Origin: a virus
Direction: 5' to 3' (one strand)
IMG/VR virus record: IMGVR_UViG_3300009433_000068
Span: 1-22,068 of that record
DNA length: 22,068 nt
Below the pieces are notes generated by a model that worked only from the letters and a program-made list of their open reading frames with translations, did no database searches and was not told the DNA's origin. Below, piece by piece: positions 13,736 to 21,944 of the stretch. Every line of letters begins with the position of its first letter. Within the stretch, counting starts at the first letter, position 1. The position numbers were made by a program, and so were the translations under genes.

Positions 13736-13943
13736 ATTCTTTTCCCCTTGGTCTGGTGTTAACCCAGTCCTCAATCTCTGTCAGAACCCAACGGCTCGAG
13801 GACCTTTTGTTTGTCTCGTCTCCCAAGACAATAGGTTTCGGAAAGTCTCCGGTCTGCGATAATTTATATATGTAGGATTTCGATACGCCTAACATCTCGG
13901 CGACCTCACCCACTCGCAGCAGTCGATTAGAATGGGATTTCAT
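13719..13943 (-). CDS. AlpA/excisionase-like helix-turn-helix protein
   Basis: This 74-residue protein has an N-terminal winged HTH of the MerR/AlpA type: LLRVGEVAEMLGVSKSYIYK (residues 8-27), then LSQTGDFPKPIVLG and a wing ending SRWVLTEIEDWV. By family knowledge such proteins bind DNA as transcription activators or recombination directionality factors. AAAGGAG stands seven bases before the ATG. It overlaps the primase gene by 17 bases and the helicase gene by 17 bases, so it is made with the replication proteins. No integrase is visible in this window, so a regulatory role (for example a switch of gene expression or an initiator-like DNA binder) is more likely than excision. That is inference. 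Confidence 0.85.
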   Translation of the reverse strand: MKSHSNRLLRVGEVAEMLGVSKSYIYKLSQTGDFPKPIVLGDETNKRSSSRWVLTEIEDWVNTRPRGKEYDPES

Positions 13944-15462
13944 TGCTATACTCCTTTACAGGTAATTCTATTTCTTCCTCTTCGAACGCAGGGACAAACC
14001 AACAACGCACGTTTGTTCTTACTTCACCCTTTGGCCCACGCTTAACTATGTTTTGTTTTGTTGAGTCTCCCCCCAAGTCTCGTATCATCTGAGTTATCTG
14101 TCCCCGACTTGTAATGTTAAACCGTCTGTTGTGTAAGAACTCGAGTAGTCCTTCCAGTTTAAACTTGGTGGTTCCTGCATCTGTCCAAGGCTTATTCATT
14201 AGGATCTCTTCCGGTGCCATGGCTCTGATGTTACTTGTGCAGTATGTTTCTAGCAGATCTTTGAACTGTCCCGATATAGTAAGTTCATCTGGCACATCGA
14301 TGTACGTTGCCTGATTCATTAAACTATTGACCATCTGCTGCCACTTCTGTGGCTTGGTAGTCGGTGGCATGAACATACATTGCTCCATGCATGCACGTTG
14401 CCAAAGCATTTGATTCTGCAACTGCTCTGTCGAAAGCTGTATCCTTGTGCCGTTCACATCCATGAAATACAGACGTGGTTCGGACAGCATGATCGTTAGC
14501 CCCCCAACCTGTGGTGCATCCGGTGCATCTTGACCTATACCGAACTTAGCCAACACACACATAGACGGATCGCAGTACGACTTGAACGGCTCTTCCTTAC
14601 AAGTGTACCCCCAGTCTTTCTTCTCATGCTGTTTGATTACGGTCTGCACCTCTGAGGATGGAAGGGGCGGAGAGAATAACGTTCGGTTGTATTCCTCCAG
14701 AGACGATTGCCAACTGTCTGGAAACTTCTTCTTGCAGTACACACCCATAAAAAACAGAAGCTTGTTCCTTGGCTCTGACAAAGGTCCGTCTGAAAACAAG
14801 TGCCGTAAGCAAGGAGGTCCATCTTCGAAATGATTCCTCACAGTTTGTGTGGCTCGTATAGCTTCCAAGTCAGATAGGTTTACTCTGTTCTTGTCCACTG
14901 CATCCAGGAACTCATCCAGTTCCATCGCTTCTATTTTCTTATTGTAGCAAAACCTTTGTGGCATTTCAGCATCAAAGTACGGCATGTTAATAAAGTTACC
15001 AACATCTCCACGCTCGGCTATGATCTTGTCTTGCTTTGGAAATATCTCACACCCGCTGTGACCCAAGAGTATGGACATCTCTGTCAGATACTCACGAATA
15101 ATAGCAGCAGGTTCCCAGTCTTTTAGGAACACATACAAATGTGCACCCCCCGATTTAGATCGGCAATGTAATAAGGGGAGATCCAACTTGCGGATCTTCT
15201 CCTGTAATTCTTTGTGGTTAAGATCGTAGACATCTACATCGATGGCCCCAAACTTACACATGTTGTCTTCGTTAATCGGGATGGCCCCGACACCTTGCTT
15301 GCCGTCGATGTGCCCTTGCACAATCTCCTCAGTCAGTGGCTCCCGAACGATCCTACTCTTGCCTTCGGCCTTACCGTCACGTCCCACTCGACCAACGGTA
15401 GTCGTTCCATGTGCCGCTGCTGCACCCATATAGGCAGCAAGCAATCTTTTTGCTTGTGACAT
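13927..15462 (-). CDS. AEP-type primase with SSB-like C-terminal tip
   Basis: This 511-residue protein has AGGAG six bases before its ATG. The N-terminal domain shows archaeo-eukaryotic primase features. FGAIDVDVYD holds metal ligands D75 and D77, SKSGGAHLYVF holds the S/H pair with H108, and CEIFPKQ carries E139 as a probable third acid. These are the family's nucleotidyl-transfer residues. Cysteines C218, C288, C297 and C302 (CKEEPFKSYCDPSMC) in the following helical domain look like a metal-binding PriCT-like module. Residues 310-511 have no recognised domain; no helicase motif is present. The last residues are ELPVKEYSNEIPF, a tip like that of bacterial SSB and of the SSB-like protein encoded upstream. 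It probably primes, and may also extend, DNA for the phage polymerase. A stem-loop lies between it and the SSB-like gene. Confidence 0.85.
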   Translation of the reverse strand: MSQAKRLLAAYMGAAAAHGTTTVGRVGRDGKAEGKSRIVREPLTEEIVQGHIDGKQGVGAIPINEDNMCKFGAIDVDVYDLNHKELQEKIRKLDLPLLHCRSKSGGAHLYVFLKDWEPAAIIREYLTEMSILLGHSGCEIFPKQDKIIAERGDVGNFINMPYFDAEMPQRFCYNKKIEAMELDEFLDAVDKNRVNLSDLEAIRATQTVRNHFEDGPPCLRHLFSDGPLSEPRNKLLFFMGVYCKKKFPDSWQSSLEEYNRTLFSPPLPSSEVQTVIKQHEKKDWGYTCKEEPFKSYCDPSMCVLAKFGIGQDAPDAPQVGGLTIMLSEPRLYFMDVNGTRIQLSTEQLQNQMLWQRACMEQCMFMPPTTKPQKWQQMVNSLMNQATYIDVPDELTISGQFKDLLETYCTSNIRAMAPEEILMNKPWTDAGTTKFKLEGLLEFLHNRRFNITSRGQITQMIRDLGGDSTKQNIVKRGPKGEVRTNVRCWFVPAFEEEEIELPVKEYSNEIPF

Positions 15463-15521: not shown

Positions 15522-16322
15522 TTAAAACGGTATTTCTTCTCCGTCGTTATCAGAAGAACTAGAGGTGGAGTCACCATGATCTTCTGGTGCAGCTTTCACT
15601 TCACCTGCGGCTACACTGTCACGAAATGACTTAGCCTCAAGCAGTAGTTCTCGGTTCTCTAACAAACCGATCTTTTCGATAGCGTAGTTGAACCACGTAC
15701 CTTGGTCGTTCGACTCTTCGACAGTGGTAAATTTCCACTGAGTACCAAACAAAGGTGGCGTAACCAACTGACCAGTCTTTGGATGCTTAACCTTTTGCAT
15801 CGCAATCTGTGTCTTCCAACGACGGCTGACCTTCAACTGGCTAGACTTCATGTCCACCACAACAGGTTGAAAAGAACCCTCGTCATCCACAATCAAGCAG
15901 TAATGCTGATCTGATTTTACCAATTCGTTTCCGCTTGGTAGGATTTCCTTTGCGCCTTGGCGCTCGGTCTTTGTCAAAACTGGATCAGTCGCGGCAATCT
16001 CCCCACGAAACCCACCGCCTTGTTCACGCGGTGTGAACTCAAGGTACTTGGTAGTTTGAAAACATGGGACAATTGAAACACCGTCATCCCCTGTCCAGAA
16101 CTGCTTAGTCACAGTGTTAAACATATCGCCCTGCTCTGAGCCATCAATGTACTCAGCCTCACGCTTCTTTAACTGTGGTGACATAGCTTGCAGGATACGA
16201 ACGAACGGGATCTGCATCTCCGAACTATCATATGCTGCGCCTTCCCCCGCAAATTCAAAGATGTCATCCATGACATCGGTAGAAACTGCGGTCTCTTTTT
16301 TATTTGCAACTGCATTAGCCAT
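15522..16322 (-). CDS. ssb: Phage single-stranded DNA-binding protein (SSB-like)
   Basis: This 266-residue protein has a strong AAGGAGG before the ATG. The body (residues about 35-235) is rich in beta segments and aromatic residues (FWTGDDGVSIVPCFQTTKYL, QWKFTTV, GTWFNYAIEKIGLL). It is followed by an acidic, Ser/Asp-rich flexible tail that ends DSTSSSSDNDGEEIPF. A disordered acidic linker ending in (D/E)(D/E)IPF is the hallmark of bacterial SSB, whose tip binds replication partners. The body does not look like the canonical 110-residue SSB OB domain, so this is a diverged or analogous phage SSB. It is second in the replication operon, two bases after the coiled-coil gene. The SSB assignment rests mainly on tail and context. 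An annealing or recombination protein is the alternative. Confidence 0.72.
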   Translation of the reverse strand: MANAVANKKETAVSTDVMDDIFEFAGEGAAYDSSEMQIPFVRILQAMSPQLKKREAEYIDGSEQGDMFNTVTKQFWTGDDGVSIVPCFQTTKYLEFTPREQGGGFRGEIAATDPVLTKTERQGAKEILPSGNELVKSDQHYCLIVDDEGSFQPVVVDMKSSQLKVSRRWKTQIAMQKVKHPKTGQLVTPPLFGTQWKFTTVEESNDQGTWFNYAIEKIGLLENRELLLEAKSFRDSVAAGEVKAAPEDHGDSTSSSSDNDGEEIPF

Positions 16323-19929: not shown

Positions 19930-20096
19930 GCAACATCCTTTGTTTTTTCATCATCACGTCGCTCTCTAAGCAATCTAATATTAGCATGATATCTTTCTAA
20001 ACTCGGTTTGCTTAAAATAAAATCTTCTAGTCTCTTGTGAAAAGTCGGATCAAAGTCTGGATCATTTACGACCATATACGGAACCCACAATGTCAT
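19926..20096 (-). CDS. 56-residue protein, unknown
   Basis: Reading MTLWVPYMVVNDPDFDPTFH first, then a basic helical half (KRLEDFILSKPSLERYHANI, then RLLRERRDDEKTKDVA), this gene is linked on both sides. Its ATG shares a base with the stop of the upstream gene (TGATG) and its stop overlaps the next ATG (ATGA). This exact fit makes it credible despite its size. The basic C-terminal helix may bind nucleic acid. No family is recognised. Confidence 0.6.
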   Translation of the reverse strand: MTLWVPYMVVNDPDFDPTFHKRLEDFILSKPSLERYHANIRLLRERRDDEKTKDVA

Positions 20097-20593
20097 CACG
20101 CAACATCCTCTTCGACACCACGTAGAGTCTGCGCTACATCTTCAAACCCACTTAGATCAATCCCGATGTTCTCTGCACACCCTCGGTATCTTGATAACCA
20201 AGATGCCAAAGCTGTCGCTGCTTGTCTACGAAGTTCTTGCTGCGAACCCTCATCATCAGGATCAAACCGCTCGTAGCCTCCGCCCTTCCTGCGTAAATTC
20301 ACAGGACTTATAAACGTAGGATATTCCCTCACGGTTATGTTAACCACTTGATCCTCGGGGTCCGAGTCTTGAACCACGATCCTCAGTCCACTTGCCATCT
20401 GACGAGCCAACTGAATGCGATGCTGCTGTGCAGCTTCCGCATCGTCCATACCATAGAACCAGTCGTATGCTTCATGGTCAGGATAATCTCTTAACCAATC
20501 CACAAACTCCCTTGGTATAAACATATTGCGGCCTGACGCCGCTAAGTATTCGTCAATAATTCTTTGACGTTCTTTCTTTGGAAATCCAGCCAT
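20096..20593 (-). CDS. Phage protein of unknown function, first of small-gene operon
   Basis: This 165-residue protein has a strong AGGAGGATAAAGT before its ATG. It begins MAGFPKKERQRIIDEYLAAS, then GRNMFIPREFVDWLRDYPDH and EAYDWFYGMDDAEAAQQHRI. The central part has ARQMASGLRIVVQD and a REYPTFISP segment with a GGGYERFDPDD stretch; the end is helical (QELRRQAATALASWLSRYRG). I recall proteins of this layout in several phages and in some bacterial prophages, always unnamed. It is soluble, with no membrane or signal segment. The order of motifs suggests a small globular domain followed by a helical tail. It is the gene closest to the five-base-periodic array, which begins 30 bases upstream of its start, so it is a candidate partner of that element. 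Confidence 0.72.
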   Translation of the reverse strand: MAGFPKKERQRIIDEYLAASGRNMFIPREFVDWLRDYPDHEAYDWFYGMDDAEAAQQHRIQLARQMASGLRIVVQDSDPEDQVVNITVREYPTFISPVNLRRKGGGYERFDPDDEGSQQELRRQAATALASWLSRYRGCAENIGIDLSGFEDVAQTLRGVEEDVA

Positions 20594-20623: not shown

Positions 20624-21134
20624 GACCGCCTTAACTGACCAAGTCACACCGCGCCGTACCCGACCCCGACTCGACCGCCAAACCTCTTCTAAACACAACA
20701 GATCGCAACAAGCCTGAACTCTACACGCCACAACTCGACCGCCAAACCTCGCCATAGCCTGACATATCATGCATCGCCTCAACACGACCGCCTTAACAAA
20801 CCTTGACCCAACGCAACCCGACACACACCGCCGTACCCAACCTAGACCGACTTAACTTACCTGACCTACCACGCCCCGCCTGAACTAACCCACCAGGACC
20901 GCCCTAACTTGACCGACCGCACCTAAACAAAACCGATCTTAACATAACTCGACCGACTGACCATACCAATCCATAACACAACTAAAGCTGCCATAACTCA
21001 ACTCGACCGCCCGAACACAACAAGCCCCGCCTGAACTCACGCTACCGAACCACGACCGCCTAGCCCTGACTGACCCCGACATAACGTACCGAAACATATC
21101 GCAACATACCGAAACACGACCGACTAACCTTGAC
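20624..21134. repeat. Five-base-periodic array with GACCGMC phase-slip motifs
   Basis: This stretch has no credible gene. On the plus strand a C occurs every fifth base: 20630-20675 (10 of 10), 20679-20739 (13 of 13), 20743-20788 (9 of 10), 20792-20847 (11 of 12), 20903-20953 (11 of 11), 20957-21007 (10 of 11), 21011-21056 (9 of 10), 21060-21120 (13 of 13), with three shorter blocks between 20851 and 20899. The unit is about RMC-NN (purine, A or C, C, two free bases); on the minus strand GKY-NN. Each block is out of phase with the one before by -1. Slips fall at GACCGCC (20624, 20673, 20737, 20786, 20897, 21005, 21054) and GACCGAC (20845, 20951, 21118), plus CCCCGCC at 20874 and ACCCACC at 20888. 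ACTCGACCGCCAAACCTC occurs exactly twice (20669, 20733). Composition is A/C-rich and T-poor. Function is unknown. Confidence 0.9.
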
Positions 21135-21135
21135 C

Positions 21136-21165
21136 AAATGAAAGGGGCATTGCTGCCCCGATCTT
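21136..21165. terminator. Hairpin terminator, possibly bidirectional
   Basis: GGGGCA (21144-21149) pairs with TGCCCC (21154-21159) around TTGC. On the minus strand it follows the stop of the 259-residue gene and is trailed by TTTCATTT. On the plus strand it follows the array and is trailed by GATCTTTATT. Both T tracts are modest. It probably ends the minus-strand gene's transcript and could end an array transcript coming from the left. Confidence 0.65.
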
Positions 21166-21944
21166 TATTCTGCGGCAATAAGAGTGATGTCTCTTCGTGC
21201 TCGTTCTTCTTGAATGAAATCCATCAACTGAGCCGTCTGTTCATCGGCATACTCTGGATTGTCCAAGGATTCTTTCTGTGCCTCGCGACCTTCGAGCATC
21301 AATTCATCCCAAAGTTCTTGGTGTCCGCCCATGCTGTCCTCAGTCACCACATCGAAACAACCAAACGAACCTTTACCTTTTTCCTGACGGAAGTCTCCGA
21401 TACCAACAATCGATCCTGCGTTCGTCAACAAAGACACAATCGAATACGCACTGAGCGTCGGTTGAACGTAGGTTATGTCAACCTCCGCACACCAACGTGG
21501 CAAGTATGCCCTCGTCCGCATGTCTGGTGTCTTGTTCATGTCCGCTGATCGAACCACATCAATCTTCAACTGAGGCTTGCCCCAAATCTGGATGTGTGTT
21601 TCTGGTAAAAAGATCAGGCGTTGTACACTAGACTTCGTAATGCCGTCTGTTTCCAAGGCCGCTGTCGCCATCGCCTGTTTAACTCCAGGTGCAGGGAAAC
21701 ATAACAGTGTTTCATCTTTAGGTTTTCTGTAGACGCTGTCGCGAAACTCTTCCTCTGGATTGTGCTTGATCTCTTTCTTCTGTGCGGCTGTCTTCTTGCC
21801 GCCTCCCACAAGTAAATCACGCATGGCTTTTGAACTCATGCTGTTAAAATACATCGGGGTTGTCCCAATCATCCGTAATGTAACTTTACCCGTTTTAAGT
21901 GGTTGAATTTCTAAAGCTGTTGCTTCTATTTTTTTAGTTGCCAT
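21165..21944 (-). CDS. 259-residue phage protein with C-terminal Gly-rich loop, unknown (RAMP-like?)
   Basis: AAAGGAGAG six bases upstream supports the ATG at 21944 over the in-frame ATG at 21995. The protein begins MATKKIEATALEIQPLKTGK, then VTLRMIGTTPMYFNSMSSKA (21-40), a basic region with GGGKKTAAQKK, and LCFPAPGVKQAMATAALETD (81-100). Next are VVRSADMNKTPDMRTRAYLP (130-149) and AEVDITYVQPTL (153-164). Finally a loop GIGDFRQEKGKGSFG (181-195) is followed by a strand and an acidic helical tail. The loop is reminiscent of the glycine-rich loop of RAMP/Cas7-type RNA-binding proteins, and the strand-helix alternation could suit such a fold, but I cannot prove homology. I recall this 'VRSADMN.TPD.RTRA' protein from other phages as hypothetical. 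It has its own promoter region with inverted repeats and its own terminator, and lies beside the periodic array. Confidence 0.65.
   Translation of the reverse strand: MATKKIEATALEIQPLKTGKVTLRMIGTTPMYFNSMSSKAMRDLLVGGGKKTAAQKKEIKHNPEEEFRDSVYRKPKDETLLCFPAPGVKQAMATAALETDGITKSSVQRLIFLPETHIQIWGKPQLKIDVVRSADMNKTPDMRTRAYLPRWCAEVDITYVQPTLSAYSIVSLLTNAGSIVGIGDFRQEKGKGSFGCFDVVTEDSMGGHQELWDELMLEGREAQKESLDNPEYADEQTAQLMDFIQEERARRDITLIAAE

Follow-up and report, generated by a model that had tools for sequence, protein, structure and literature searches.

What kind of element sets a cytosine at every fifth base over half a kilobase of a phage genome is the question raised by the locus analyzed here, which lies in IMG/VR virus record IMGVR_UViG_3300009433_000068 (positions 1 to 22,068, the whole stretch of 22,068 nt being hereafter called the window). 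Our analysis indicates that the locus is very probably a VIPR system, namely a guide-RNA array, comprising about nine guides that are directed at least in part against podophages, placed behind the gene of a predicted RAMP (Cas7-like) protein. VIPR has been described in one preprint of 2026, with experiments in a few systems (PMC13142463). A preliminary description of this DNA had stated that no phage element with such a grammar was known, a statement overtaken by that preprint (April-June 2026), and its interpretation is only partly supported, since it missed that the minus strand is the functional one, that the two free bases of each unit carry the guide message, that the guides are separate and that the gene of the reader protein lies next to them.

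Reality of the Five-Base Period

On the plus strand, C recurs at 5-nt spacing from about 20628 to 21138. The four unbroken runs noticed previously (10, 13, 11 and 13 successive Cs at every fifth base) are exact, and the summed length of the four longest runs, 47, is unmatched in 2000 dinucleotide shuffles, in which the maximum was 32. The signal also stands out from shuffled sequences in the lag-5 autocorrelation and Fourier analysis, C having a Fourier power of 30.6 around period 4.9 versus at most 9.5 in 1000 shuffles. With a slip-tolerant phase model, C scores 88 at 20629-21133 (0-based), compared with only 13-14 elsewhere in the window or for other bases. The mean period is 4.9 and not 5 since each block contains one 4-nt unit; slip positions are thus present, as previously reported, but they are regular, with one GKC-G-GTC per block.

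The array sits between two genes that are both on the minus strand. Two short open reading frames (68 and 79 aa) overlap it, but the 5-nt period and the relatives of the locus bear out the earlier view that the region is non-coding. Rfam and tRNA scans of the window gave no match, and the search for similar DNA in phage records returned chance matches only. Helical phasing, correctly considered a poor fit in the preliminary description, was dropped as an explanation, whereas the gripping of a single strand by a repeating protein surface is still the best reading, the protein probably being of the RAMP/Cas7-like kind.

Anatomy of the Array

On the minus strand, where the neighbouring genes also lie, the array has the form (G-K-Y-N-N)n, which confirms the RMC-NN unit proposed for the opposite strand (NN-GKY in the minus-strand reading). 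Over 64 distinct arrays the composition of the unit is G.96, G or T.94 and C or T.97, followed by two free bases (NN). The 4-nt unit takes the form GKC-G and is followed by GTC, with block boundaries mostly every 49-64 nt. By this parsing, the array of the window consists of about nine blocks, eight with 9-12 units and one irregular, as listed below.

20628..21138, minus strand: whole guide (vrRNA) array of G-K-Y-N-N units, delimited by run counts, Fourier analysis, phase model and unit parsing
21121..21134, minus strand: array leader, two units GTCAA GGTTA, ahead of the first boundary GTC-G-GTC
21057..21120, minus strand: guide 1, 12 NN (GT TC AT GC AT TC AC AT GG CA AG TA)
21008..21056, minus strand: guide 2, 9 NN (GT TC AG GA CA GG TT GT CG)
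20954..21007, minus strand: guide 3, 10 NN (GA GA AT AG TA GT AT TT AT CA)
20900..20953, minus strand: guide 4, 10 NN (GA AT AA CG TT TA GC CG AA AG)
20848..20899, minus strand: irregular block, with two extra 1-nt spacers that break the phase twice
20789..20847, minus strand: guide 6, 11 NN (TA TG AC GG GT GG GC GG AA TT AA)
20740..20788, minus strand: guide 7, 9 NN (GT GA GA AT AT AG AT GA TT)
20676..20739, minus strand: guide 8, 12 NN (GA GT GT GA CA TT GC CT GT TA GA TT)
20628..20675, minus strand: guide 9, 9 NN (GA GG CG AC GC GT TT CA AA), ending in GGCGGTC

The leader GGTCAAGG is frequent among relatives. Guide 6 occurs in identical form in three other loci (L002, L037 and L047) and as variants in many relatives, while variants of guide 4 are found in L019 and L023. 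The irregular block is perhaps a degenerate or decayed guide, a differently phased guide or a guide with bulged pairing.

A regular array of this kind recalls the binding sites of TRAP (trp RNA-binding attenuation protein), in which 11 (G/U)AG triplets are separated by 2-nt spacers and thus have a 5-nt period. The array might accordingly be one long structured RNA or protein-binding platform that a ring- or filament-forming protein reads whole in the manner of TRAP, with no guide function and unconstrained NN. The exact period, the presence of about 10-11 units per block and the strong constraint on the scaffold bases would all fit such a platform, but the triplet of the window clade is GKY, its third base being C or T in 97% of units and not G, and its free bases carry target information. 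These differences, the last of which rests on the codon signature and the podophage matches presented below, make the platform very improbable, and the matches obtained by skipping one target base refute it as a full account.

Conservation and Turnover among Relatives

We found 80 IMG/VR loci that encode the 259-aa protein of the neighbouring gene (vipr) at 66-99% identity, and in nearly all of them the array lies immediately 3' of this gene. The period passes the comparison with relatives, in which phase is kept while the free bases change. The guides turn over fast: identical guides are almost never common to loci with less than 98% protein identity, and block content is swapped between arrays whose proteins share 90-98% identity.

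These results bear on the notion that the array is a diverged ordinary tandem repeat, a functionless minisatellite kept by slippage. Some array units do recur, as a minisatellite would have it, but across 64 arrays GKY and phase are preserved as the NN vary freely, in agreement with the earlier claim that this is no tandem repeat in the usual sense; moreover, the array is linked to one gene and its block content is replaced between arrays with 90-98% identical proteins. Phase conservation, together with the target matches, refutes the minisatellite, to which we attach a practically negligible probability; it was discarded along with the TRAP-like reading.

The vipr Gene

The candidate reader of the array is encoded directly upstream, on the same strand.

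21165..21944, minus strand: vipr gene, 259 aa, predicted RAMP/Cas7-like, with G-loop GIGDFRQEKGKGSFG and C-terminal helical extension

Sequence comparison indicates that this protein is related to SUSP1 Vipr. It belongs to no Pfam family and matches PHROG 4652 (function unknown); phmmer detects a weak match to PDB entry 36pp, 'SUSP1 Vipr protein', over the glycine-rich loop, and hmmsearch finds 36pp with E 0.011, the match again covering the G-loop. For profile comparisons we used a 22-sequence alignment of the protein family, in which the glycine-rich motif is nearly invariant. With this query, hhalign matches the SUSP1-clade Vipr family with Prob 95.8 and E 8e-9, and the wV8 homologue, a member of the SUSP1-clade family used, matches 36pp over full length. 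The match to homologues from Gordonia and Mycobacterium phages is stronger (E 2e-18) than that to the SUSP1 clade, and the same homologues match the SUSP1-clade family with E 4e-16. The best fold matches of an AlphaFold model, which is of low confidence (pLDDT 59), are almost all Cas7/Csm3/Cmr4 chains, with Z up to 5.8. A peptide-pattern search for distant vipr relatives in bacterial genomes yielded none that could be confirmed.

What the Free Bases Encode

In SUSP1, the NN dinucleotides of the vrRNA pair with DNA and one target base is skipped between them, usually the wobble base (PMC13142463). We decoded 376 guides from the arrays of the window clade and found that their NN frequencies track sense-strand codon positions 1-2, with r 0.79 and the best fit in 1000/1000 bootstraps; other frames give no more than 0.1 when the genes of the phage itself are used and no more than 0.2 with podophage genes. 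Differences between homologous guides follow the same pattern, for changes that are synonymous for Arg (AG/CG) number 37 versus 7 expected, those of its reverse complement (CG/CT) 35 versus 6, and those synonymous for Leu (AA/AG) 55 versus 22. On the basis of this codon 1-2 signature and the synonymous changes, we conclude that the guides track protein-coding sequence.

Podophage Targets

Searched through IMG/VR as an 18-base gapped pattern, guide 6 of the window gave three matches, two of which correspond to one podophage terminase. Its match to the terminase gene (at LNLPAPTPVQY) extends to 21/22 bases with a 1-nt skip that falls on codon position 3, and the single mismatch is a Leu-synonymous first base. 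Relatives of this podophage include isolates grown on Paracoccaceae and Pelagibacter.

The guides of the clade were then searched under the 1-nt-skip rule in marine T7-like podophages, at E<1e-3. Matches were obtained for 15 guides in 89 podophage loci and subsequently for 17 of the 376 guides in 205 loci, with up to 22/22 bases matched, whereas skips of 0, 2 or 3 nt and three sets of shuffled guides produced none. The 17 guides point to about a dozen sites, with five in the terminase, and in all 17 the skipped base lies at codon position 3 (wobble). For one guide, 56 near-exact matches were obtained, among which the skipped bases vary, giving 24 different skip strings.

It may be asked whether a VIPR array of this kind is mainly aimed at close relatives or satellites of the phage, and not at unrelated podophages. 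We consider this unlikely, even if other clades target satellites and resident prophages (PMC13142463) and the holin/lysis region of one relative (L022, 7373-7500) is matched by two guides from different arrays, mismatch-free with a 1-nt skip and about 100 nt apart, so that targeting within the phage family is possible. Only two guides, one of them low-complexity-like, reached E<1e-3 among the relatives (about 1.4 Mb, or 2.8 Mb counting both strands), versus 17 in about 2 Mb of podophages; the matches of guides to the flanks and genomes of array-bearing relatives were hardly above controls.

Several results weigh against a podophage-directed VIPR locus. The AlphaFold model of the Vipr-like protein is poor (pLDDT 59), with a VIA-align Z of at most 5.8. 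A target was found for only one of the nine guides of the window; exact IMG/VR scans for guides 8 and 4 gave no match, nor did the scan of a bacterial genome collection with guide 6. As for the matches of the clade, their E-values were calculated as if all four bases were equally frequent. Low-complexity collagen-like repeats make up two of the 17 targets, and one and the same terminase site is matched by five guides. The wobble phase carries less weight than it seems to, since shuffled guides likewise favour codon position 3 (21-22 of 40). (A guide common to L004, L029, L048 and other loci had one match in a high-GC phage, which we judged to be due to chance.)

Proposed Mechanism

What the sequences themselves show is the anatomy of the array, its linkage to vipr, the skip rule, the podophage targets and the wobble phase. 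With these points in mind, the podophage-directed VIPR system that we favour would work as follows. The array would be transcribed from the minus strand and the transcript cut into guides at or near GKC-G-GTC, a sequence that probably represents the cut site or else the start and end of a guide. Vipr would form a filament on the RNA, one subunit holding the G-K-Y scaffold of each unit, while the NN of each unit would pair with target DNA and one target base would be skipped between successive pairs. DNA binding and silencing, which the preprint demonstrates for SUSP1 (PMC13142463), would carry over to this clade, such that binding would silence genes of a co-infecting podophage. The guides appear to be aimed, at least partly, at genes of rival T7-like podophages that infect marine roseobacters, the large terminase gene foremost. 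Most synonymous changes in the target would give no escape because the skipped base is the wobble position of the codon. A marine alphaproteobacterium, probably one of the roseobacter group, is the likely host, given that the isolates closest to the target phages were grown on bacteria of this kind.

Comparison with Known Systems

VIPR guides in general comprise 9-16 units in which GGY, or a related consensus, alternates with NN. The window clade shares with the SUSP1 VIPR (type II) a phage-encoded protein of predicted RAMP type with G-loop, an adjacent non-coding RNA built of 5-nt units (three scaffold bases and a free pair), guides of 9-12 units, targets read with a 1-nt skip at the wobble position and the targeting of competing mobile elements. 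It differs in the scaffold, where GKY takes the place of GGY and every third unit or so has T second, and in the layout of the guides, about nine of which are butt-joined through the 4-nt unit, whereas SUSP1 has separate RNAs of about 100 nt with a structured 3' tail. Its Vipr has 259 aa and a C-terminal extension, compared with 195 aa for the wV8 homologue of the SUSP1 clade, its downstream gene is unlike SUSP1-clade vap1 and the targets found are T7-like podophages. The clade is thus not type II as described, because nothing but the 4-nt unit links its guides, which lack an invariable structured 3' tail.

Similarity is also seen with the Gordonia and Mycobacterium phages (Ecliptus gp19, UmaThurman gp39 and Brocalys gp45; PHROG 4652-like), whose proteins have about 30-35% identity and which likewise carry, beside the gene, a unit array cut by a 4-nt unit; their units are GGY-NN and their boundary GGCA, as opposed to GKY-NN and GGCG-GTC in the window. 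(Of such GGY-NN arrays, three lie unannotated beside 'hypothetical protein' genes in phages of these hosts: L294 3127-3342, L295 3110-3433 and L296 2075-2312. VIPR loci may have gone unrecognised in many actinophage records.)

Class 1 CRISPR-Cas systems, with their Csm3/Cmr4/Cas7 backbone, have in common with the window the predicted protein fold and a pairing of guide and target that RAMP subunits interrupt periodically, but their period is 6 with five pairing bases, versus a period of 5 with two pairing bases per unit in the window. No CRISPR-type repeats were detected in the array region, and no cas families, including Cas1/Cas2, among the scanned proteins of the window.

VIPR being already described, what is distinctive of the clade is its combination of variant features: GKY as scaffold, guides that are butt-joined and tail-less, a Vipr of greater length and, downstream, a gene not related to vap1. 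The preprint mentions seven types, related consensus motifs and staggered arrays, and states that array architecture varies between types (PMC13142463). The clade could conceivably be a type beyond those seven, characterised by tail-less butt-joined arrays, a relaxed GKY and a new accessory protein, which marine phages would use as a multi-guide weapon, quickly renewed, against unrelated lytic T7-like phages and from which wobble changes in the terminase offer no escape, but this proposal is tentative and rather doubtful. In any case, the clade provides an independent confirmation, drawn purely from sequences, of the 1-nt-skip code. To this it adds an array layout in which guides are numerous, as well as a natural enemy, the marine T7-like podophages. 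Phage-phage warfare in ocean bacteria thereby becomes readable from metagenomes, as it can be decoded who targets whom.

Elements Flanking the Array

Two further features adjoin the array.

21144..21159, minus strand: GC-rich hairpin GGGGCAGCAATGCCCC, located after the stop codon of vipr and before the array
20096..20593, minus strand: gene next downstream of the array, encoding 165 aa; candidate accessory (vap-like) gene

The hairpin is kept in relatives with different but paired stems, and a weak T-run lies behind it. In 60 of the 61 relatives with enough sequence, the array is followed by this same 165-aa gene. Its product matched no Pfam or NCBIfam family and only weakly PHROG entries, showed no similarity to SUSP1-clade vap1 and has weak fold matches, partly to sigma-factor-like helices at Z about 3.

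In six relatives (L006, L008 [about 2690-2820], L011, L013, L020 and L026), a conserved element of about 140 nt, absent from the window, is present between the post-vipr hairpin and the first guide. It has several predicted hairpins, one of which shows paired changes from AU to GC, and no Rfam match. In L003 (4225-4330), the array start, made up of hairpin and leader GGTCA, appears twice with a different hairpin, GATGGGCGACTCGGCTAAATCGCCCATC, in between, as if it had been duplicated or inserted.

Elsewhere on the minus strand of the window, the Pam3 gp34-like protein (15522-16322) and the primase (13927-15462) both have C-terminal tails of the form -EIPF / -NEIPF. Such tails are reminiscent of single-stranded-DNA-binding proteins, and the Pam3 gp34-like protein may be the SSB of the phage.
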